A stretch of DNA of 49,203 bases. It comes from Deltaproteobacteria bacterium GWB2_55_19 (GTDB lineage: Bacteria; Desulfobacterota; GWC2-55-46). Position 1 is the stretch's first letter; every line of letters begins with the position of its first letter. Location: NCBI GenBank assembly GCA_001797465.1, contig MGPQ01000017.1, positions 56,039 through 105,241 of the forward strand. Direction: 5' to 3'. A model generated the notes under the pieces. It was not told the origin of the DNA and did no database searches. It saw only the letters and a program-made list of their open reading frames with translations. Below, one piece after another: positions 21,615-32,968 of this stretch. Made by a program: the position numbers and the translations under genes.

Positions 21615-23126
21615 TTAAGGTATGAACCTCGTAAGCTCGGGTATCATTGCGCCCGCGAACCCCTCAAGCGCCTCCTTCGGCTCCGCCCCGTCCAGGTCCT
21701 CGGCGTTTATCGTAACGAAAGCGCCTCCCGTGCCCCTCCCCATCAGGGAATTAAAGGCCGTATGGAAGATGACGTCATACCTTCCAGCGACGACCCTGCC
21801 GTTGATCATGTACCAGAAGAGCGTTGTCGTCCTCCGCCCTCCCGCTTCAATAGTTTTTTTGTTGACCGCGGCCTCTGCGCCGGTGGAGAGCTTTATTCGT
21901 ATCGGAGCGGCGCCGTTGTGGAAGGCGGAACTCCTGAAATTCACGAGCTCCCTGCCCTGCGACTGCGACTCGAAGTACCCGATATTGAGCGTTATATCTA
22001 CTCCGGCCCCGCGGTATCTGCGCGTGAGCCCCTGGTCCGCGCCGGACTCCTTCCTCATCTGGTCCGGCATATCAGCACCGGCCGCGGCAAGTCCGTTGAC
22101 CATAAGCGGAAGCATCCTCAGGTCTTCCTTCAACGGGACCGGGGGGTTTGAACGAAAGCTGACAAAGAGACCGGCAACAACGAGCAATACGAGGGTAATT
22201 ATAAGCGGCGCGTTCCGGGCGGCAGGAAACGCGCCGTGCTTATCCTGTGCGCCGTCTTCGGCCTTTCGCCCCCCTTCGCCTCTTGAGAGTATCCAGACCC
22301 CGGCAAATAGGACTATGTACCCGGCGAAGGACACCACCATCGCGTGGAGGACATGAAGCGGCCCGTGGAGGTCGCCGGCGAGGTTGTGGTAAGCGAGAAA
22401 GCCTATCAGCGTCACCCTTGCGGCATTGGCCAGGACCGACATGATGAGCGCACCCGCAACGAGGGCAACCCTCCTCCACCAGCCGCGTAGCGCGACGTAC
22501 GCGAGCGGGACCCCTATCGCCGCCACGGAGACGAGGTAATTGACTCCGCTGCACACCTTCGCTACCTCGAGCGTTATATTCGGGAGCTCGATGTATATCG
22601 ATTCCCTGTACGCCGGGATGTGCATGACCTGAAGCAGTTTCGCGCCCACGCCCGCGGAAAAATTCTGGAATGGATAATGGAGCCCCTCGGTCAGCTCGCC
22701 CCAGGATGTGAGCATGAACGCAAGGTAGAGTAGCGGGAAGAGGACCGCTTTAAGGACGGGCCACCCGAAGACGAACGCCACCGCCCCGAGCATCGTCAGC
22801 ATGAGCGAGAGCTCCTCGAGGGCTAATACCCCTGCCGCGCGCCCGATGATAAAGGCCGCGAGCCCCGTTGCGAGGAGCGGCGCGCCCCAGAGGCCGCCGG
22901 AGACGGGCGTCCCCTTGAGCGACCCGGCCTTTCTCCGGATCAGGTATGCGCTTATAAACGGTATCAGGAACCCGTGGGAATAGACCGGGTTCGTCCACCA
23001 GGTGACGGCGAGCGTGGATAAGAGGCTTATGTAGCAGAAAAAAACGCCGAGCGAGACGAGCGCGGCCTGGATGACCGTCATGGCCCCCTCGCTCGGCGCC
23101 GCCGTTGTTTTTTCCGCCGCGCCCAT
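21615..23126 (-). CDS. xrtA: Exosortase A fused to EpsI-type domain
   Basis: This 503-residue protein is a sorting transpeptidase of the inner membrane. Residues 1-285 are the exosortase: YSHGFLIPFISAYLIRR (49-65) is the family hallmark. The catalytic triad is Cys192 in VCSGVNYL, Arg237 in NAARVTLIG and a His in LHVLHAMVV (258 or 261). Eight or so helices surround them. After a hydrophilic linker (281-305) and one helix (307-324), residues 330-503 form the EpsI/DUF3485 domain (YRGAGVDITLNIGYFESQSQ). This A-type fusion is known in XrtA systems, which cleave PEP-CTERM tails and are tied to EPS. No PEP-CTERM protein is encoded in the window. The start overlaps the deacetylase stop (TAATG). Confidence 0.92.
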   Translation of the reverse strand: MGAAEKTTAAPSEGAMTVIQAALVSLGVFFCYISLLSTLAVTWWTNPVYSHGFLIPFISAYLIRRKAGSLKGTPVSGGLWGAPLLATGLAAFIIGRAAGVLALEELSLMLTMLGAVAFVFGWPVLKAVLFPLLYLAFMLTSWGELTEGLHYPFQNFSAGVGAKLLQVMHIPAYRESIYIELPNITLEVAKVCSGVNYLVSVAAIGVPLAYVALRGWWRRVALVAGALIMSVLANAARVTLIGFLAYHNLAGDLHGPLHVLHAMVVSFAGYIVLFAGVWILSRGEGGRKAEDGAQDKHGAFPAARNAPLIITLVLLVVAGLFVSFRSNPPVPLKEDLRMLPLMVNGLAAAGADMPDQMRKESGADQGLTRRYRGAGVDITLNIGYFESQSQGRELVNFRSSAFHNGAAPIRIKLSTGAEAAVNKKTIEAGGRRTTTLFWYMINGRVVAGRYDVIFHTAFNSLMGRGTGGAFVTINAEDLDGAEPKEALEGFAGAMIPELTRFIP

Positions 23127-24175: not shown

Positions 24176-24676
24176 CTATGATATCTTCAGAAGGAACGCC
24201 CTGTCCACCACCGCTCTCGCGTTCACGGTCTTAAGGAGTATGGAGACCCTCTCGGTGTCCTTGATCTCTTTTTCAAATACCGCGTCGAACCCCTCGAACG
24301 GGCCGGCCTTTATCTGGACCGCGTCGCCGGCGCTGAATACTTCCCTGCCGAAGGTTATTAATCCCCCCTCGGTCCTGCGCTCGATCGAGGATATTATATC
24401 CTCCGCCACCGGGGTCGGGCAGTTCTCCGACCCGACGATCTTCCTTACGCCCCTGGAGTACTTGACGAGCCTGAAGTTCCTGAAGATGTCGAACCTGATG
24501 AACAGATAACATGGGAAGAGCGGGCTCACGGTCTCGACGGCCCTGCGCCTTACGCACCTGCGCTCCTTCACCCTGGGGTTAAGCACCTCGAAGCCCAGAC
24601 CGGCGAACTTCTTCTCCAGCGCGTCCTCGTTCCTGGGTTTCGTGTATACGAGATACCACTTGCGCCCTTCCGTCAT
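24176..24676 (-). CDS. RfaH/NusG-like specialised antiterminator
   Basis: The protein has 166 residues. Residues 5-105 form an NGN domain (RKWYLVYTKPRNEDALEKKF, then PLFPCYLFIRFDI and GVRKIVGSE), which binds the RNA polymerase clamp. Residues 112-150 form a KOW domain (GDAVQIKAGPFEGFDAVF). The length and the charged VKERRCVRRRAVE loop suit RfaH/UpxY/LoaP-type paralogs rather than housekeeping NusG. Such factors keep polymerase going through long polysaccharide operons. It overlaps the sugar transferase by 4 bp and is followed by a 207-bp leader bearing an ops-like site, so it probably acts in cis-like fashion on the genes below it. Confidence 0.88.
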   Translation of the reverse strand: MTEGRKWYLVYTKPRNEDALEKKFAGLGFEVLNPRVKERRCVRRRAVETVSPLFPCYLFIRFDIFRNFRLVKYSRGVRKIVGSENCPTPVAEDIISSIERRTEGGLITFGREVFSAGDAVQIKAGPFEGFDAVFEKEIKDTERVSILLKTVNARAVVDRAFLLKIS

Positions 24677-26064
24677 CTTGCTCCCCTGCCTGTAAGCACC
24701 ACCTTTATGGTCCTCAAAAATATCATGACGTCCATGAGGGGCGACATGTTCTTTATGTAGTATATGTCGTACTGGAGTTTCTCAAGCGCGTCCTGGACCG
24801 TCGCGCCGTAGGGATATTTTACCTGCGCCCAGCCGGTGAGGCCGGGTTTGACCACGGTCCTTATCTCGTAGTACGGGATGACCTCCTTGAGCTTCTGGAC
24901 GAAGAACGGCCTCTCGGGCCTGGGTCCGACGAAGCTCATGTCGCCCTTTATCACGTTTATGAGCTGCGGAAGCTCGTCGATCCTTATCTTCCTTATGACT
25001 CTGCCGACCCGGGTCACCCTGTCGTCGGTTGCGCCTGCCCACACCGGCCCGCTCTTTGCTTCGGCGTCTGCGCACATGGAGCGGAACTTGTAGATATTGA
25101 ACAACTTGCCGTTCTCGCCTACGCGGACCTGGCTGAATATCGACGCCCCCTTTGATTCGAGCCTTATTATCAGGGCGGTCAGTACGAGCACGGGCAACGA
25201 TATGACGAGACAGACGACGGCGAGGGCGACGTCGAACATCCTTTTTACGATCTTCCTCGATCTCAGGGACTTGAACCCGTCGGAGAAGACCATCCAGCTG
25301 GGTTTCAGATGATTAAGCGGTATCTGCCCCGTCATCCTCTCGTTGAAGGTCTCGCCCTCCTCGACCTCGACTCCCTTCAATTTGCAATCGAGGAGCGCCG
25401 CCATGGGGAGCTTGGCCCGCCTGTCCGGGAGCGCCACGATTATCATGTCGATTTTTTCGGCGTCAATCACCCTCATTATGTCCCCGTAGCCGCCTATGAC
25501 GCCGGGGTTTACGATGGAGACGCCCTGTTTCTCCGGGTCGTCGTCTATGAAGCCGACGAGCCTGAACCCGTCCCATGTGCTCTTGTATATCTCCTGGCCT
25601 ATTTTCTTCGCGAGCCCCTCGGAGCCTATTATTAGGACGTTCTTGGACGGGAGCTGCTTGCTAATCGAGCCGAAGATCCACCTCCAGAAGAGCACGGCCG
25701 CCGGGGTGGTTATCGTGTTTATGAGGAGTATCCCCCTCCATGTAAAGAATATCGGCAGGAGATAGAATATGCTTGATAAGGCCAGGGCGGCCGCGAGCGA
25801 AGCGGCAAGGAGCTTTACGAACATGACCCGGCCGGGCCGGTACATCTCGGCGGAATAGAGGTCGAACGCGGAAAAAGACACAAGGTAGGTTATGGTTATG
25901 GCGCCGGTCTTTAAAAATGCGGGATCGTAATTCACCACGCTCCCGTAATCCAGCCTGAACCTTATGGCCGCCGAGAGGAGCGCCGCGGCGAAGATGATGA
26001 CGCCCTCCGAAAGCACTACCAGGACCTGCTTCGGGGAAAAATGCCTGTTTAACATGAATAACAT
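24673..26064 (-). CDS. Undecaprenyl-phosphate sugar-1-phosphate transferase, XrtA-associated (TIGR03013 type)
   Basis: This 463-residue PNPT/WbaP-like enzyme starts the repeat unit by moving a sugar-1-phosphate onto undecaprenyl phosphate. The N-terminal half has four or five helices and then a CoA_binding_3-like domain (NVLIIGSEGLAKKIGQEIY). The catalytic C-terminal domain has KRMFDVALAVVCLVISLPVL (membrane re-entrant helix), FNIYKFRSMCADAEA, RKIRIDELPQLINVIKGDMS, VGPRPERPFFV and VVKPGLTGWAQVKYPYG. That last pattern is typical of the PEP-CTERM-linked EpsB_2 family. AGGAG sits nine bases before the ATG. It is 12 bp after the autokinase, so it is co-transcribed. Confidence 0.92.
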   Translation of the reverse strand: MLFMLNRHFSPKQVLVVLSEGVIIFAAALLSAAIRFRLDYGSVVNYDPAFLKTGAITITYLVSFSAFDLYSAEMYRPGRVMFVKLLAASLAAALALSSIFYLLPIFFTWRGILLINTITTPAAVLFWRWIFGSISKQLPSKNVLIIGSEGLAKKIGQEIYKSTWDGFRLVGFIDDDPEKQGVSIVNPGVIGGYGDIMRVIDAEKIDMIIVALPDRRAKLPMAALLDCKLKGVEVEEGETFNERMTGQIPLNHLKPSWMVFSDGFKSLRSRKIVKRMFDVALAVVCLVISLPVLVLTALIIRLESKGASIFSQVRVGENGKLFNIYKFRSMCADAEAKSGPVWAGATDDRVTRVGRVIRKIRIDELPQLINVIKGDMSFVGPRPERPFFVQKLKEVIPYYEIRTVVKPGLTGWAQVKYPYGATVQDALEKLQYDIYYIKNMSPLMDVMIFLRTIKVVLTGRGAR

Positions 26065-26076
26065 CAGCCGTTGCTC

Positions 26077-27087
26077 CTAATAATAATACTTGCCGAGCTT
26101 TATGTCGGCGCCGTTCAGCACCACGCCGACCACATTGCACTTTGAAAGGGACTTAAACGCCTTCAACACTATGTCTTTCTGGGTCTTCCCCGCCCTTACC
26201 ACCATGATGACCCCGTCTACAAGCCTCGATATCACGTTCATATCGACGAGCGGGAGCACCGGGGGGGAGTCCACCAGCACATAATCGAATTCGGCCTTGA
26301 GCGAATCTATGACCCCCGCTATCCTCGACGACCCGAGTATCTCGGAGGTCTTTCTTGTGATGTTGCCGGCCGGGAGTATGAAGAGCCCTGTATCCTCCAC
26401 CTGGAGTATGGACGCGTGCAGCTCGGCCTCTCCCTTCAGTATGTCCGAGAGCCCCTGGGCGCAGGCAGGCTCCAGAAGCTCAGCCACGGTCGACGGCTTC
26501 CTCAAATCGCACTCGACCATGACCACCCTTTTTTTGAACTCTGTGGCCATCACATAGGCGAGGTTAAGCGATGTAACTGACTTGCCCTCGCCCTTTATCG
26601 CGCTCGTTATAGCGAAGACCGACGACGGCTTCTTCTGGTTTATCTGCTCGATGTTGGTGAAGAGCACCCTGTACTGCTCGGCGACCATCTGGTCGGATTC
26701 CAAGGCCTCGATCGGCCTTTTAAACCTTGCGCGGCTGTACTTGAAATGCCTCTTGGTGGAGCGCTCCGGCGAAGAAGACGGGAGCCCGAAGCTCTTTCTC
26801 AGGGACTCCAGGTCGACCTCCGGGGTGCACTCCTCCTGCGCGGGCGCGAGGCAGAGCTCGCTGTCGTAGGCGGCCCTCTTCTGCCGGTCCATGAGCGTAG
26901 CATGCGCCTCGTTAAGCTCGCCGACCCTCTCGGCCCTCTCTTCCTCGGTGTAAAGCGAGTAAACGGCGACCGAGTCGGTCCCGTAGACCGCCATCGCCTT
27001 CCTGTACGAATCCTCTATTTCTCCTTCGGAGACGCCCGGGCTGAGATTCAATATCCTGTAGTAGTCCTTTACCATGCGCTTGTCCAT
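26077..27087 (-). CDS. XrtA-type tyrosine autokinase (CpsD-like) with N-terminal J-like domain
   Basis: The protein has 336 residues. Residues 130-336 form a BY-kinase: Walker A SAIKGEGKS (162-170), Walker A' VVMVECDLRKPST (188-200), Walker B YVLVDSPP (269-276) and a C-terminal tyrosine cluster GKYYY (332-336) for autophosphorylation. It works with the separate Wzz protein, as in CpsC/CpsD pairs, to control chain length. Unusually, residues 7-76 resemble a DnaJ J-domain: DYYRILNLSPGVSEGEIEDS for helices I-II and LNEAHATLMDRQKRAAYD for helix IV. The HPD tripeptide is missing (VYGTD in its place), so it should not stimulate DnaK. It may be a docking module. It is 4 bp after the MinD-like gene. 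Confidence 0.9.
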   Translation of the reverse strand: MDKRMVKDYYRILNLSPGVSEGEIEDSYRKAMAVYGTDSVAVYSLYTEEERAERVGELNEAHATLMDRQKRAAYDSELCLAPAQEECTPEVDLESLRKSFGLPSSSPERSTKRHFKYSRARFKRPIEALESDQMVAEQYRVLFTNIEQINQKKPSSVFAITSAIKGEGKSVTSLNLAYVMATEFKKRVVMVECDLRKPSTVAELLEPACAQGLSDILKGEAELHASILQVEDTGLFILPAGNITRKTSEILGSSRIAGVIDSLKAEFDYVLVDSPPVLPLVDMNVISRLVDGVIMVVRAGKTQKDIVLKAFKSLSKCNVVGVVLNGADIKLGKYYY

Positions 27088-27091
27088 CTCC

Positions 27092-28123
27092 TCATGCCCC
27101 CGCCTTCGTAGCGCGTCTTGCGCGCGGGCCTATGACGCCGTTCAGGCACGCCTCTATCGACGCGGCCGCCCTGGACGAAGGGTACTCGTTCACCAGGGGG
27201 CGCCTCAACCTTATCGACTCCGCCACGCAGTCCTCCGAGGCTATGTAGCCCGCCGCCCTTATGTCCACCCCAAAGTAGTCTTGACAGGCCCGCGATACCG
27301 CGGCCCCGAGGGCTTCGTCTTCCTGCCTCCTCACAAAGTTGACGACCACGGATATCGAAGTGTCCCCCATGAGGCGGCGGAGCGTCTCACCCCTTTCGGA
27401 GTCGAGCTCTTTAAGATGGCGTATGATGTCCGCTACTGTCTTCACCTTGAGCGACCATTCGGGGTTCTCGAATATCCTCTTCAAAAGGCCCTTGAGCTCC
27501 AGGTCGCCGTGTGAGTTGATGACGTTCCTCATCCGGCGCAATATCAGGCATTTTATGAACCTGTATGTGTTCTCGATTGAAGTCGGCTCCGGCGTCGTTA
27601 CGAGGATACCCTCGTCGCCTGAAAGGAACAGGTCGAGCATGTTCGAGGCGGTGCCGGGGCCGACGTCCATGAGTATGTAATCGTAGTCGAGGGTCCCGAG
27701 CGCCGCCTTCAGCTTTTCAATCTTATCGCTGCCCGCGTCGGCTATGTCGAGCGAGTCCCTTGCGCCGCTTATAAGGTCGAGGTTCGGTATGGAGGTCTTC
27801 GATACAAGGTCGGCGATCTCCGCCACCTTGTTGTTCAGAAAGCTCGAAAGCGAGAGCCTGCCGCCGTCCATGCCGAGGAAGGTGTGCAGGTTCGACGCCC
27901 CGAGGTCCGCGTCGACGAGGAGGACCCTATGTCCGGACTTCGACAGGAGCACCCCCATGTTCGAGGCGATAAGGCTCTTGCCGACGCCGCCCTTGCCGCC
28001 GCCGATCGTCCAAAGCCCCGCGGCCGGGCCGGGCGCCGCCAGAACGACCTCGAGTCTCGGCGCCTCCTGGGGCGCATTGCCGCCTTTTTGCGCCTTCTGG
28101 AATATCCTGCTTATAATCCCCAT
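27092..28123 (-). CDS. MinD/ParA-like P-loop ATPase
   Basis: This 343-residue ATPase of the FlhG/MinD type has the deviant Walker A GGGKGGVGKS at residues 41-50, VLLVDADLGASNLHTFLG (Walker A'; 67-84) and YDYILMDVGPGTASNM (Walker B region). It has no tyrosine cluster, so it is not a BY-kinase. The first 35 residues are a basic, proline-rich extension (MGIISRIFQKAQKGG), perhaps for membrane binding. It sits one base after the Wzz gene and 4 bp before the autokinase. Proteins of this type position flagella or secretion machines. Here it could place the EPS export complex at a pole or regulate the kinase; both are inference. Confidence 0.87.
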   Translation of the reverse strand: MGIISRIFQKAQKGGNAPQEAPRLEVVLAAPGPAAGLWTIGGGKGGVGKSLIASNMGVLLSKSGHRVLLVDADLGASNLHTFLGMDGGRLSLSSFLNNKVAEIADLVSKTSIPNLDLISGARDSLDIADAGSDKIEKLKAALGTLDYDYILMDVGPGTASNMLDLFLSGDEGILVTTPEPTSIENTYRFIKCLILRRMRNVINSHGDLELKGLLKRIFENPEWSLKVKTVADIIRHLKELDSERGETLRRLMGDTSISVVVNFVRRQEDEALGAAVSRACQDYFGVDIRAAGYIASEDCVAESIRLRRPLVNEYPSSRAAASIEACLNGVIGPRARRATKAGA

Positions 28124-28124
28124 G

Positions 28125-29645
28125 CTATTTGCCGCCGCTTACAATCTTCAGATATCCCCGCTTCTTTTCCGTCTGCTTTTTTTGAAACACCGGTATCGAG
28201 GCAAGCACCTGGTACGGCAGGACGGCCTCAAGCTCCTCCGGCTTCCTGAACGCGGGGTTCAGGTACTCCATCATGAATATCAGCCCGAGGCCCGCGCCCA
28301 CGCCGGCCGCAAGGCCTCCGAAAGCGACCTTCATCTTGTCGTTCTTGTAGGGGCGCTCCGGGAGGTTCGCGGGGTCTATGACCTTGAACCTCTCGCCCTT
28401 CTGCCTCTTTTCCATGTTCTCGGCGAGCCGCGCGTTCAGCTTCTTTTCAAGGAGGGTCTGATAATTCTTGAACGAGATGTCGTAGTCCCTGTGAAGGTCC
28501 GACATCCTCTGCTCGTTCGCCGGCGAGTCCTCAACCCTTTTCTCGTACTCCTTTATCTGCCTGCGCACCCCCGCCTCCCTCTCGCTGAGGGCGGCTATCT
28601 GCGCCTTGTATTCGCCTCCGCCGTAGGTCCTCGCAGGTTTTTTCGCGTCCGCGCCGTCCTTGTCAGAAGGGCTCTCCCTGGCCTCGATCCGGGATTCGAT
28701 ATCCTGGATGCGGTTCTTTACGATTATTATGTCCGGGTAGCTCTCTTTATACGTGGAGCGCAGGAACGCGAGCTCGTTATTGAGCCTCTCAAGCTCCGCC
28801 TCAAGCGAGACCTGCCTGCCGCCGGCGGACGGGCTATTGACAGCCGCGCCAGCCGCCTCTTCCTGGACGATCTTTCTCTCCTCGGCCGCGCGCATGGCGA
28901 TATTCAGCGACTGGAGCTCCATCTGGAGCCTGTCGAGCGTGCGAAGATTTGCCTCGAGCTGTTCGGGGAGACTGCCCATGCGGGATTCCTTGAAACGCCT
29001 CAGGGCCCTTTCCTGCACCTCAAGGTCCTGCTTGGCCCTGTCGAGCTCGTTAGAGAGGAACTCGGAGGTCCCTTCCGCGTACTGCTCCCTGGCCTTGAGG
29101 TTCTCGTCGATGAAGAACGACGCCAGGGTGTTCGTCACCTGCATTGTGACGTAAGGGTCCTTTCCGGTGTAATTTATGCTGAAGGCGTCGCCGCCCTTCT
29201 TGCTGTCGCCCATGACCTTTATCTCGATATCCCTGCGGAGCATCTCTATCAGGTCCTCCCTGCCGGCGGCCTCCGTCTTGCCGAGGCCTAAGCGCCCTGA
29301 CATGGATCCCAACAGGCCGCCGCCGTCCGTCCCCTTATAGAGGTTGAAGTCCTCGACTATCTGCTCGAGCCTGGACCGGCTCAATATCTGCTGTTTTATG
29401 GTATTGAGCCTCTCGACGAACGGGGTCTTATCGGTGGGCATCACGTACTGCTCGGGGACCTGCTGTTGCTCGACGAGTATGAGCGTGGTGGAGCGATAGC
29501 GGACCGGTAGCGACCTGCTTATGACGAGCCCTGCGAGCGTGCATAAGATTACAGGCGCTATGAGGACCCACTTTCTGAGATAGACAATCTCGGCCAACTC
29601 GAGTAAATCCTTGTGATCCTTGCCGGATGACATCATATGCTCCAA
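28125..29645 (-). CDS. Wzz-type polysaccharide co-polymerase, XrtA-associated (TIGR03007 type)
   Basis: This 506-residue inner-membrane protein has two transmembrane segments: WVLIAPVILCTLAGLVISRS near residue 31 and a C-terminal KVAFGGLAAGVGAGLGLIFM near 450. Between them lies a periplasmic domain with the Wzz fold (FVERLNTIKQQILSRSRLEQ) and long coiled coils (KAREQYAEGTSEFLSNELDR and LEAELERLNNELAFLRSTYK). The proline-rich segment before TM2 (IDPANLPERPYKN) is typical. It sets chain length with the autokinase. Its first 13 bp overlap the barrel gene. The length fits the family, longer than E. coli Wzz because of the coiled coils. Confidence 0.9.
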   Translation of the reverse strand: MEHMMSSGKDHKDLLELAEIVYLRKWVLIAPVILCTLAGLVISRSLPVRYRSTTLILVEQQQVPEQYVMPTDKTPFVERLNTIKQQILSRSRLEQIVEDFNLYKGTDGGGLLGSMSGRLGLGKTEAAGREDLIEMLRRDIEIKVMGDSKKGGDAFSINYTGKDPYVTMQVTNTLASFFIDENLKAREQYAEGTSEFLSNELDRAKQDLEVQERALRRFKESRMGSLPEQLEANLRTLDRLQMELQSLNIAMRAAEERKIVQEEAAGAAVNSPSAGGRQVSLEAELERLNNELAFLRSTYKESYPDIIIVKNRIQDIESRIEARESPSDKDGADAKKPARTYGGGEYKAQIAALSEREAGVRRQIKEYEKRVEDSPANEQRMSDLHRDYDISFKNYQTLLEKKLNARLAENMEKRQKGERFKVIDPANLPERPYKNDKMKVAFGGLAAGVGAGLGLIFMMEYLNPAFRKPEELEAVLPYQVLASIPVFQKKQTEKKRGYLKIVSGGK

Positions 29646-30766
29646 TTTAGAGGCGTCAAGGTGACATTGATAAACACCTGGTCCCTGTCAAAGTCCTCGT
29701 CCGGGGCGCCCTCGCCCCGCTGCTCGAAATGTGAATAGCCGCCGGATATCCGCATCCATCCCCTCGGTTGCCAGTAAGAGCCTAACTTCGCGTCGTACGA
29801 CGCTATATCCACTTCGCCGGAAGGCTCGGAGACTGTGTCGCCGAGGCTCAGGGAAAGGGTCAGGCCAGAGGACTCTCCAAGCGTCTTCGCGACCCCGGCA
29901 TAGAGCCTGTTCGCTACGCTTAGCTCTCCGGAGAGCCCGCTCGAGTGGGTGATGTCCCTCGTGAAGCCGGCGTTCACGGCGCCCCACTTGAACTCCTTTA
30001 CGGCCGAGGCGTCGATAGCCCAGTCCGCGCGCGCGCCGTCCCCGGAAAGCACAAGGCCGGCCGAGAGGCTCGCGGATAGGCTTTCTGAAAACTTTTTAGA
30101 CAACTCTATTGACACCTTATGGACATCCTCGTCTCCCGCCCCATCCGTCTCGAAGTGATATCTGGAGTAAACATACCCCATTTTAAAGGCCGCGAGGTCC
30201 GTATACGCGTAACGCCACGACGCCGACGCGCCATCGACCCGCGTGTCAACAAGTGACGGGCTGTCAAAGTCTATGACCGAGTCTTCAATGGTGATTTCCA
30301 GGGCGGCCTTTTCCGTAATTTCCTTGGTAAAACCGAGTTCCGCCGTATTGGAAAATATTTCCGCGTAGTCCGTCTGTACGCCGGCATCGAGGGCAACGAT
30401 GGAATCCCTGGACTTCTTCAGGGTATCCCTGAAATCCACCTTCAAGCCGTTTGAGACCGCGAGGTCCGCCTCCAGGTCCGCGCTTTGCGAGGTGTAATCG
30501 AGACCAGTTTCTTTCTGGTAGAAGGCGGCGCTCAATTCGTAAGCCCCCTTGAATTTGAGCTTCCTGGATCCCGAGGTCACATGGACCGCCGGCGAAAGCC
30601 TCGTGACGAAGTCGGAAGAGGCGACAGCGTCAAAGGCCGGGTTGCTGTCGTACCTCTCCTCGACCGTGAACTGAGGTCTGACGACCGTCTCGGCCGTAGC
30701 CGCGCCTGTTATGGTGAAAGACAACGCCAGGGCCAGTAGGCCTGCTCTGCCTGGTTTACGGCACAA
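29633..30766 (-). CDS. Outer-membrane beta-barrel protein
   Basis: The 377-residue protein has a signal peptide (RAGLLALALSFTITGAATA) and then alternating polar/hydrophobic strands rich in aromatic and glycine residues: KLKFKGAYELSAAFYQKETG, TDLAAFKMGYVYSRYHFETD, GLTLSLSLGDTVSEP and RGWMRISGGYSHFEQRGEG. The pattern suits a barrel of about 16 strands, like the outer-membrane proteins of XrtA loci (TIGR03016-like). It likely forms or lines the exit pore for the EPS, since the Wza-like protein here is short. The start is TTG and overlaps the export gene by 11 bp, with GGGGGA about eight bases upstream. Confidence 0.82.
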   Translation of the reverse strand: MCRKPGRAGLLALALSFTITGAATAETVVRPQFTVEERYDSNPAFDAVASSDFVTRLSPAVHVTSGSRKLKFKGAYELSAAFYQKETGLDYTSQSADLEADLAVSNGLKVDFRDTLKKSRDSIVALDAGVQTDYAEIFSNTAELGFTKEITEKAALEITIEDSVIDFDSPSLVDTRVDGASASWRYAYTDLAAFKMGYVYSRYHFETDGAGDEDVHKVSIELSKKFSESLSASLSAGLVLSGDGARADWAIDASAVKEFKWGAVNAGFTRDITHSSGLSGELSVANRLYAGVAKTLGESSGLTLSLSLGDTVSEPSGEVDIASYDAKLGSYWQPRGWMRISGGYSHFEQRGEGAPDEDFDRDQVFINVTLTPLNWSI

Positions 30767-31355
30767 AGACGGTGTCCCCCGGCTTTAATAGGACGGACCC
30801 GTCCTTTTTGTCGGAAAGGAGGTCGTCGAACTTTACCCTTATCTTCTCCTCGCCGCCGCCTTGCTTCTGGCGGACGAGGACCATGCTGTTCTTCGAGGCA
30901 TACTGCGTAAATCCGCCCGCGAGCGCGATCGCCTGGAGCAATGTGGTCCTGGACTTCAGCGCGTACGTGCCGGGCGCCTTGACCTCGCCTATCAGGTAGA
31001 CCTTGTAGCTCCTTATCTCCTGGACTATGACCGAGACTACGGCAGTAGACTGGTACTCCTTGAGCCTCTCGACTATGCCGTCGCGGAGCTCGCTTGGCGT
31101 AAGCCCCGTTGCCTGGACATCCCCTATCAGCGGTAGCGATATCTTGCCGTCAATCCTTACGAGGACCGTCTTTGATATCTCCGGGTTCTTCCAGACCGAG
31201 ATCTCGAGGATGTCCTCGGGGCCTATCTGGTAAGACGCCTCGGCAGGCGGCTGTCTCTCCCCTGCAACGACCGCGCCTCCGGGGATGAACAAAAGGGAGA
31301 GCGCCGCGAACAGGGCCGGTAGCGCGATAAACATCAGGAAACGCGGGGTCTTCAT
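30756..31355 (-). CDS. Wza-like polysaccharide export protein, short form
   Basis: The 199-residue protein has a signal peptide (MKTPRFLMFIALPALFAALS), the Poly_export domain (YQIGPEDILEISVWKNPEIS, then IDGKISLPLIGDVQATGLTP) and one SLBB domain (VYLIGEVKAPGTYALKSRTT). It ends GDTVFVP, a usual final motif. There is no lipobox cysteine, and it is about half the length of E. coli Wza. It matches the short export proteins of XrtA loci (TIGR03027-like), which rely on a separate outer-membrane partner, here probably the barrel protein downstream. AAGG sits eight bases before the ATG, and a candidate extended -10 promoter lies in the 64-bp gap upstream. Confidence 0.92.
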   Translation of the reverse strand: MKTPRFLMFIALPALFAALSLLFIPGGAVVAGERQPPAEASYQIGPEDILEISVWKNPEISKTVLVRIDGKISLPLIGDVQATGLTPSELRDGIVERLKEYQSTAVVSVIVQEIRSYKVYLIGEVKAPGTYALKSRTTLLQAIALAGGFTQYASKNSMVLVRQKQGGGEEKIRVKFDDLLSDKKDGSVLLKPGDTVFVP

Positions 31356-31419: not shown

Positions 31420-31791
31420 CTACTCGTCGATTTTAAGCCTCTCGGAAAACTTAAGCCCGCTCAAAGCCGCCTTAACCGATACCCTCTCGGTCCAGACGGC
31501 CCTCGCCCTCGCGCGCACGCCGAGGCCGTCTATGTCCACCGCTATCTCGTCTTCCGAGGTAAGGGCCCTTCCCTCGTACATGATCCTCGCCCCGTATTCC
31601 GAGTAGTCCTTGAGGACAGCCCTGCCGCTCTGCCGCCCGGCGGAGTATGTAAGGCCGAGATCGCACCTGACCCTGTCTCCGCCCCTCCTGTCGAGGAAGA
31701 AGAACGAACAATGCGGGCATGTGACCTCAACCGCCTCTTCCAGCTTGTAAAACGCCTTCCTGCATTCCGGACAGACCCTGATCTCGATCAT
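31420..31791 (-). CDS. Zinc-ribbon plus PilZ (c-di-GMP binding) protein
   Basis: The 123-residue protein has two CxxC knuckles, CPEC at 7-10 and CPHC at 25-28, forming a short zinc ribbon. A PilZ domain follows: DRRGGDRVR (34-42) supplies the RxxxR c-di-GMP motif, and DYSEYGARI (62-70) the D/NxSxxG motif. Both ligand-binding motifs are intact, so it should sense c-di-GMP. It is the first gene upstream of the export module (64-bp gap) and could activate or gate EPS synthesis. Zinc ribbons joined to PilZ are known in Deltaproteobacteria; the partner is unknown. It looks cytosolic. Confidence 0.87.
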   Translation of the reverse strand: MIEIRVCPECRKAFYKLEEAVEVTCPHCSFFFLDRRGGDRVRCDLGLTYSAGRQSGRAVLKDYSEYGARIMYEGRALTSEDEIAVDIDGLGVRARARAVWTERVSVKAALSGLKFSERLKIDE

Positions 31792-32153: not shown

Positions 32154-32807
32154 TCAGACAGAGCCCTGCCTGGCGAGGACGCTGTTCACATCCGAGTTCT
32201 TTATCGCGTAGCTTATAAGCTCCCCTCTGGTGCGGACGTTGAGCTTCTGGAATATGCGGTTTAAGTGGGTCTTGACCGTAGGCTCGCTTATGTGGAGCTT
32301 GTAGGCTATCTCCTTGTTCCTGAACCCCTCGCCTATAAGCGCGACGACCTCCTTTTCCCTCCCGGAGAGCGCAACAGGGCCTTCCTTGCCGAGCGCGTTT
32401 ATGCCGTTAAGGAGGTTTTTGAACGTCTGCTTATCTATCCAGACCTCCCCTTTCGCGACCGACTTGATCGCCTTGACGAGCAGGGACGGGTTGGAGTTGC
32501 CGAGAAGCACGCCGCTTATCTTTTTCTTGAGTATCGCGGCAACGAGGTTGTCCCTGCCGCAATTGGTGTCAAGGAGGATTATATGGAAGGACCTCGATCC
32601 GGACTCGATGTCCGGGAACTGGTTATAGAGGGTGGTGAAATCCGTAAGCAGTATGTCTATACTGAGGGAGTGGAGCTTTTCAACGGTGCACGCCTCTCCG
32701 GGGACGACCGCCTCAACGACCCGCACATCCCTTTCGGGTTCGAGTATCCTGGAGACGCCTTCGGAAAAGACCATGTTGCCAAAGGCGAGCATTACTTTTA
32801 CAACCAT
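32154..32807 (-). CDS. LuxR/NarL-type response-regulator-like transcription factor
   Basis: The 217-residue protein has a receiver-like N-terminal part (MVVKVMLAFGNMVFSEGVSR, then IDILLTDFTTLYNQ with the Asp at the phosphorylation position). The acidic pair expected after beta-1 is missing (AFGN), so phosphorylation is doubtful. The C-terminal HTH has LSGREKEVVALIGEGFRNKE, IAYKLHISEPTVKTHLNRIF and RGELISYAI, textbook LuxR/NarL. I chose ATG 32807, seven bases after GGGG; the frame is open to 32831. It has its own promoter (32969-32996). It stands next to the EPS operon head and reads toward it, so EPS genes are likely targets. Confidence 0.87.
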   Translation of the reverse strand: MVVKVMLAFGNMVFSEGVSRILEPERDVRVVEAVVPGEACTVEKLHSLSIDILLTDFTTLYNQFPDIESGSRSFHIILLDTNCGRDNLVAAILKKKISGVLLGNSNPSLLVKAIKSVAKGEVWIDKQTFKNLLNGINALGKEGPVALSGREKEVVALIGEGFRNKEIAYKLHISEPTVKTHLNRIFQKLNVRTRGELISYAIKNSDVNSVLARQGSV

Positions 32808-32968
32808 TTTACAGCCCCGCTTCAAATGCAAAAATGACTTGCGTTAAATTCACAAAAACTTGTTTAGCACCGCTTAAAACACATGATTTATTTAATACAG
32901 AAACTCCCCGCCAAAACGCGGAAATAGCGTATTTAAGATATTACCACACAGCGTATGCTTTTTAAAGG

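Follow-up and report, generated by a model that had tools for sequence, protein, structure and literature searches.

An HPD-less J-like domain on a BY-kinase as a putative docking arm for a MinD-like ATPase in an exosortase-linked polysaccharide operon

Introduction

In CapA/CapB-type systems, a Wzz-type protein switches on its partner BY-kinase through its cytoplasmic tail, and BcsQ, a MinD-type positioning ATPase, is also encoded in a polysaccharide operon. To our knowledge, it is an open question in most bacteria what positions the export machines and what turns them on or off. One described link between the two themes is the Streptococcus pneumoniae BY-kinase CpsD, which is coupled to ParB (PMC4574921).

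J-like domains of type IV, as in Tim16/Pam16, ARC6 and CJD1, have the J fold without its HPD motif and are used for contacts with proteins other than Hsp70 (PMC3196505). The J-like domain of plant CJD1 could not substitute for DnaJ in E. coli and showed no Hsp70 binding in a yeast two-hybrid assay (PMC3196505). ARC6 binds AtMinD1 in plastid division, through a contact that maps to ARC6 residues 154-509 and is not shown for its J-like domain (PMC8646090).

Here we describe a bacterial gene in which an HPD-less J-like domain is joined to a BY-kinase, within a window of 49,203 nucleotides from Deltaproteobacteria bacterium GWB2_55_19 (contig MGPQ01000017.1). Like the free CapB/CpsD and XrtA-type kinases (TIGR01007, TIGR03018), the product is a predicted soluble P-loop tyrosine kinase beside a split Wzz-type protein, with Walker A and B motifs, C-terminal tyrosines and a modelled Wzc/CapAB fold; unlike them, it has a J-like domain, an ExDxR motif and a broken EX2RX2R motif. 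It differs from known type IV J-like proteins in being bacterial, in sitting on a kinase (or, in relatives, on a RodZ-type HTH), in its genetic link to MinD and in its YSLY-type motif. The ARC6/AtMinD1 pair shares the combination of a J-like-domain protein with a MinD partner, but serves division rather than polysaccharide export and is otherwise unrelated. CpsD likewise ties a BY-kinase to ParA/MinD positioning, but is itself ParA-like and ParB-binding (PMC4574921), whereas here a separate MinD-like protein is co-encoded. That protein has the deviant Walker A and MinD-type fold of MinD, FlhG and BcsQ, but scores below MinD cut-offs, carries its amphipathic stretch at the N- rather than the C-terminus and has a J-like partner. 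The original prediction for this gene knew of no described function for the fusion, and literature searches on a J domain with a BY-kinase, or with RodZ- or MinD-like partners, likewise returned nothing relevant, so that the partnership is apparently undescribed.

Results

A J fold without HPD at the N-terminus of a BY-kinase

The fusion gene runs on the minus strand, which the original prediction had not specified; the gene and its parts are listed below.

26077..27087, minus strand: J-like/BY-kinase fusion gene, 336 amino acids plus stop (ATG at 27087, stop codon 26077-26079)
26863..27066, minus strand: J-like domain, residues 8-75, with the four main J helices and a further short one covering YSLY (Pfam DnaJ, model and PDB fold matches)
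26974..26982, minus strand: G36-T37-D38 at the position of DnaJ's HPD (from sequence; HPD is absent from 93 related domains)
26950..26961, minus strand: YSLY motif, residues 43-46, near-invariant in J-kinases
26737..26847, minus strand: flexible linker, residues 81-117, pLDDT mostly below 50
26080..26700, minus strand: BY-kinase domain, residues 130-336, with Walker A KGEGKS, Walker A' ExDxR, Walker B DSPP and C-terminal YYY
26512-26514, minus strand: residue 192, Asp to Glu in Walker A'; the equivalents are likewise Glu in all J-kinases scored

Both halves of the predicted fusion score above family cut-offs, bearing out the claim of a J-domain-like module on a tyrosine kinase: residues 8-75 match Pfam DnaJ (PF00226) at 38.8 bits against a cut-off of 27.8 (E 1e-9), and the NCBIfam BY-kinase family TIGR01007 is matched at 138.2 against 108.05. 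Pfam also scores AAA_31 C-terminal of the DnaJ domain. Residues 1-124 find E. coli DnaJ J domains among PDB sequences (E ~1e-5) with the HPD replaced; the stretch between helices II and III where Hsp40s carry HPD reads Y35-G36-T37-D38, in agreement with the predicted loss of the motif.

An AlphaFold2 model of the J part (residues 1-84, 27 sequences) has helices at 9-12, 21-35, 40-45, 48-66 and 68-80. The original prediction had recognised J helices I, II and IV but had left out helix III, which the model shows too. Among the 50 PDB matches listed by Foldseek for this model (m6c98c7794d1c), essentially all are J-domain proteins, with probabilities of 0.99-1.00 and TMq mostly 0.6-0.73; examples are the J domain of CbpA (3ucs, TM 0.73/0.82) and Tid1 (2dn9, TM 0.71/0.75). 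The E-values are weak (best 1.5e-3), as is usual with an 84-residue helical model, and the assignment therefore rests on the agreement of the whole match list and not on single E-values. The predicted structure of the N-terminal ~80 residues is thus a J-domain fold (TM ~0.7), as had been anticipated, and the module as modelled is a J fold without HPD, that is, a J-like domain of type IV. In the model of the full protein (26 aligned homologues), the J-like helices are followed by a very-low-confidence linker (~82-114) and then by the kinase, whose modelled part structurally matches Wzc and CapAB.

In the kinase part, Walker A, Walker B and the C-terminal Tyr cluster are present and conserved in the homologue alignment. 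Walker A' is ExDxR/K throughout the J-kinases scored, as it is in the MinD-kinase fusion described below, and DxDxR in the other BY-kinases listed; one motif count gave a single ExDxR among non-J kinases that was not reproduced among those listed. This Asp-to-Glu change is conservative, although the DxDxR of BY-kinases is lost. The EX2RX2R ring motif is also incomplete: its last Arg is Phe here and is Arg in 0 of 26 J-kinases, but in most other kinases; the MinD-kinase fusion lacks this Arg too. Given these two alterations, kinase activity and ring assembly are no more than putative.

The fusion lies in an exosortase-type export operon

The neighbouring genes relevant to the analysis are listed below.

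30756..31355, minus strand: Wza-type SLBB export protein
29633..30766, minus strand: outer-membrane protein, TIGR03016-like
28125..29645, minus strand: Wzz-type polysaccharide co-polymerase, TIGR03007-like (241 bits, below the cut-off of 278.85)
27092..28123, minus strand: MinD-like deviant-Walker ATPase, 343 amino acids, its gene ending 4 bp before the start of the kinase; putative partner of the J-like domain
28082..28123, minus strand: amphipathic stretch at the N-terminus of this MinD-like ATPase, MGIISRIFQKAQKG, a proposed membrane-targeting helix (prediction only)
24673..26064, minus strand: polyprenyl glycosylphosphotransferase, TIGR03013 (EpsB_2), 482.7 against a cut-off of 393.35
24176..24676, minus strand: NusG/RfaH-like antiterminator
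21615..23126, minus strand: exosortase W (XrtW) with EpsI-type C-terminal domain, NF038142, 584.6 against a cut-off of 425

Genes for the Wza-type protein, outer-membrane protein, Wzz-type protein, MinD-like ATPase, J-kinase, glycosylphosphotransferase, RfaH-like factor, a deacetylase and exosortase W follow one another in the same direction. The predicted exosortase setting is confirmed by the XrtW match, but its attribution to XrtA did not hold: XrtW fits the exosortase far better, and the kinase, although its top NCBIfam match is the XrtA-associated tyrosine autokinase TIGR03018, reaches only 145.8 of the 230.65 bits required. Of 59 genomes, 16 encode a full-length XrtW, and each of these also has a J-kinase. 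Any exosortase-like match is found in 20 of 22 J-kinase genomes versus 5 of 37 others (Fisher 3e-9, uncorrected for relatedness), and this profile links the fusion to exosortase-type export generally, rather than to XrtA as the original prediction had it.

Upstream of the export genes lie a PilZ protein whose N-terminal stretch resembles a zinc ribbon (31420-31791) and a LuxR-type regulator (32154-32831). Such a pair precedes the export genes in many J-kinase loci and suggests a c-di-GMP input.

J-kinases form a conserved family within one order

Searches of 297 genomes from the phylum, together with 59 relatives, found further J-kinase fusions only in three families (f1, f3 and f4) of the same bacterial order, where at least 27 homologous fusions occur. 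Our set comprised 29 loci, with 27 full or near-full proteins, one frameshifted gene and one cut by a contig end. HPD occurs in none of the homologues, while 26 of the 28 scored carry YSLY and a single one carries YALY; another pattern match, YALL, is ambiguous. For the J part, dN/dS is 0.09-0.26 in five pairs (dS is saturated in a sixth), so that, in the pairs measurable at sequence level, the domain is under purifying selection. Because at least 27 homologous fusions keep the domain under such selection, the fusion is not a chance event.

The J-like domain is absent from the other kinases of the phylum. Free, J-less kinases there mostly start with a short MSKIxxALEKA helix, and the J-like domain occupies that place in J-kinases. 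Restriction of the fusion to one type of exosortase operon was considered and rejected: a second group of J-kinases (G197, G283, G298, G316, G311 and G119) adjoins another glycosyltransferase, with a non-XrtW exosortase ~26-30 kb away on the same contig where contigs allow. At one locus (L094, 9040-9998, genome G320) the J-kinase gene is split into several frames, by frameshift or assembly error.

HPD-less J-like domains are linked to MinD-like ATPases

A MinD-like gene lies directly upstream in 28 of 28 distinct J-kinases with upstream sequence. In the window, this protein has a deviant Walker A, GGGKGGVGKS, that fits KGGxGK[ST]; it matches Pfam ParA (54.2 bits) and CbiA (58.6 bits), and falls below the MinD cut-offs of TIGR01968 and TIGR01969 (72.6 versus 212.9 and 84.4 versus 201.75).

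To place the J-like domain itself, an HMM of the J part was searched over 247 genomes of the phylum. Scores fell into layers, with J-kinases at 99 bits or more, proteins of ~200-315 amino acids at ~61-88 bits, and then ordinary DnaJs. The middle layer consists of a J-like domain followed by a RodZ-type HTH_25, without HPD and with YSLF, YSLL, YSFF and similar sequences at the YSLY position. In a J-domain tree of only 81 columns, HPD-bearing DnaJs (branch value 100), J-HTH proteins (96) and J-kinases are separate. Single genomes of other phyla (Bacteroidota, Firmicutes, Campylobacterota and others) gave DnaJ-level scores only.

The J-HTH proteins share the MinD linkage. Outside the order, in 25 of 25 J-HTH loci the gene just upstream, on the same strand, encodes a homologue of the window's MinD-like protein (E 1e-53 to 1e-76), and all 15 J-like/HTH loci of Myxococcota follow a MinD-like gene, two with weak MinD matches (38 and 44 bits). 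A further 20 loci included 13 HPD-less domains, all with MinD (four as a neighbour, nine in a single MinD-J-HTH chain), and seven HPD-bearing J proteins, none of which has one. Altogether, 93 distinct HPD-less domains comprise 82 with a MinD-like gene upstream, nine fused to MinD and two without, both at contig ends; part of this tally came through the MinD search, and the unbiased counts are 25/25, 15/15 and 13/13. By comparison, 0 of 16 HPD-bearing J domains have a MinD-like neighbour, some of these control flanks spanning only ~1.5 kb.

The relationship is reciprocal: of the best 30 MinD-like homologues in the phylum, 29 adjoin a J-like gene, and the remaining one is fused to a BY-kinase. 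J-linked and J-less MinD-likes divide fairly sharply by score: those at ~169 bits or less lack a J-like neighbour, save one J-linked exception at 165. In the MinD tree, 11 J-less rows fall on one side of a branch (value 96), and all kinase-linked rows group with the MinD-kinase fusion (99); two rows labelled 'JHTH', L091 and L094, are truncated or broken J-kinases. The wider neighbourhoods of 20 loci (J-HTH loci and the fusion locus) differ from one another, and no homologues of polysaccharide-export proteins appeared in them at the threshold used, except at the fusion locus, L187. The MinD-like gene is the only neighbour found at both J-kinase and J-HTH loci. As a separate observation, in two loci of family f14 (L203 and L204) a Wzz/kinase/EpsB_2 cluster is flanked by a J-less MinD-like gene that lies on the other strand, and the association of MinD with export may therefore be wider than that with the J-like domain.

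A distinctive N-terminus of kinase-linked MinD-like proteins

The amphipathic stretch belongs to an extension of ~37 residues that typifies kinase-linked MinD-likes and is rare in HTH-linked ones (median 37 versus 10 residues in J-HTH-linked proteins, with start codons picked by a simple ribosome-site score). These extensions mostly begin like MSFLSRFLGKK, MTVFNFDWIKKLF or MGIISRIFQKAQK, and in 3 of the 26 kinase-linked proteins the start is not clearly amphipathic. The extension is predicted from sequence to be a membrane-targeting helix. Ordinary free BY-kinases start with MSKIIxALEKAxxEG, and the MinD-like protein in the window begins with the similar MGIISRIFQKAQKGG (28082-28123, minus strand). 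It is as though the partner had taken over this helix, although the likeness may be chance.

Natural fusions join the same domains

Nine single-chain MinD-J-HTH_25 proteins occur in Myxococcota (L234-L238, L240, L249-L251), and Pfam finds all three domains in each of the three scanned; our searches found no name or function for them. A different fusion, of 604 amino acids (genome G043), joins a MinD-like domain to a BY-kinase; it has no J domain, and its gene follows one for a Wzz-type protein. It comes from one MAG, has a long branch in the tree, and no second example was found in the family and class of that genome (two genomes only). At this locus (L157, 592-2403, minus strand) the deviant Walker A reads GSGEKGAGKS and its signature lysine looks lost.

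Discussion

We favour, with moderate confidence, an explanation in which an HPD-less J fold has been repurposed as the kinase's docking arm for the MinD-like ATPase. J-kinases and J-HTH proteins share only the J-like domain and the MinD neighbour, which single chains also join, and docking of the J-like domain onto the MinD-like ATPase is on these genomic grounds probable. The evidence for the MinD-like ATPase as partner is strong; from it we infer, tentatively, direct binding, membrane attachment, any effect on either ATPase, and positioning. Co-occurrence and fusion fall short of proving direct contact by the J-like domain. The docking role of the original prediction is sensible in itself, but the partner that finds support is the upstream MinD-like ATPase, not DnaK and not primarily the export complex.

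The proposed mechanism starts from a pair of a MinD-like ATPase and a J-like/RodZ-type-HTH protein, encoded by two genes or as one chain, which is the common and presumably older arrangement in the phylum and Myxococcota. In this order, a BY-kinase would have replaced the HTH half, and the pair would have come to sit in an exosortase-linked exopolysaccharide operon. The MinD-like ATPase, membrane-bound in its ATP state via the N-terminal amphipathic stretch, would grip the J-like arm and so concentrate the soluble kinase beside the Wzz-type protein. Contact of the kinase with the Wzz tail is likely by analogy with CapA/CapB. Cycles of autophosphorylation on the C-terminal tyrosines would then control chain length and export, at times or places set by the nucleotide state of the MinD-like ATPase. 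A tentative extension, to which we give somewhat less than even weight, is that docking places the kinase at the membrane next to the Wzz-type protein and that the ATP cycle of the MinD-like protein controls this step.

The closest alternative, and the nearest to the original prediction, is that the J-like arm docks the kinase to the export complex itself, at the Wzz-type tail or another operon product, with the MinD-like gene a bystander. The J-kinase gene does lie within an intact Wza/Wzz/kinase operon, and the established activation of CapA/CapB-type kinases by a Wzz-type tail would suit such a contact. However, the other kinases of the phylum manage without the domain, and the same domain follows or joins MinD in HTH proteins unrelated to polysaccharide export, at loci that show no export genes yet always have the MinD-like gene. 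This indicates a MinD-like partner rather than the export complex, and we regard the alternative as unlikely.

The altered ring motif raises a further option, namely that the domain is a homotypic oligomerisation module, or a spacer that alters kinase assembly, in place of the EX2RX2R contact. The loss of the last Arg throughout the J-kinases scored would fit, and J-like domains can pair with J domains, as Tim16 does with Tim14 (discussed in PMC3196505); nonetheless, the near-perfect MinD linkage in two architectures would be left unexplained, and we consider this option distinctly improbable.

A surviving co-chaperone role, in which the domain recruits DnaK to the kinase or nascent export complex, would accord with the J-type fold and overall sequence, but is rejected as highly implausible: HPD is missing in 93 of 93 related domains, HPD-less CJD1 failed in both Hsp70-related assays (PMC3196505), and the source genome already encodes two normal HPD-bearing J proteins. 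Equally remote is the notion that the whole MinD/J block is functionless inherited baggage in the polysaccharide operon, for which the broken gene copy in one MAG (L094) might speak, against the low dN/dS, the tight gene spacing and its persistence in at least 28 genes across several genera.

If the favoured docking explanation is true, a chaperone fold now serves as a plug for another family of ATPases, and MinD/ParA-type positioning is joined to Wzz/BY-kinase control of polysaccharide export. More speculatively, and with appreciable doubt on our part, HPD-less YSLY-type J-like domains may be a dedicated partner class for a MinD-like clade in at least two phyla, regulating a MinD-type ATPase as true J domains do Hsp70, with one lineage having swapped its HTH output for a tyrosine kinase and thereby placed export under a MinD-type positioning cycle. 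The docking explanation would also provide a first functional hypothesis for the widespread, nameless pair of MinD-like and J-like/HTH proteins in this phylum and Myxococcota, and would mean that a Pfam DnaJ label need not imply a DnaK partner.
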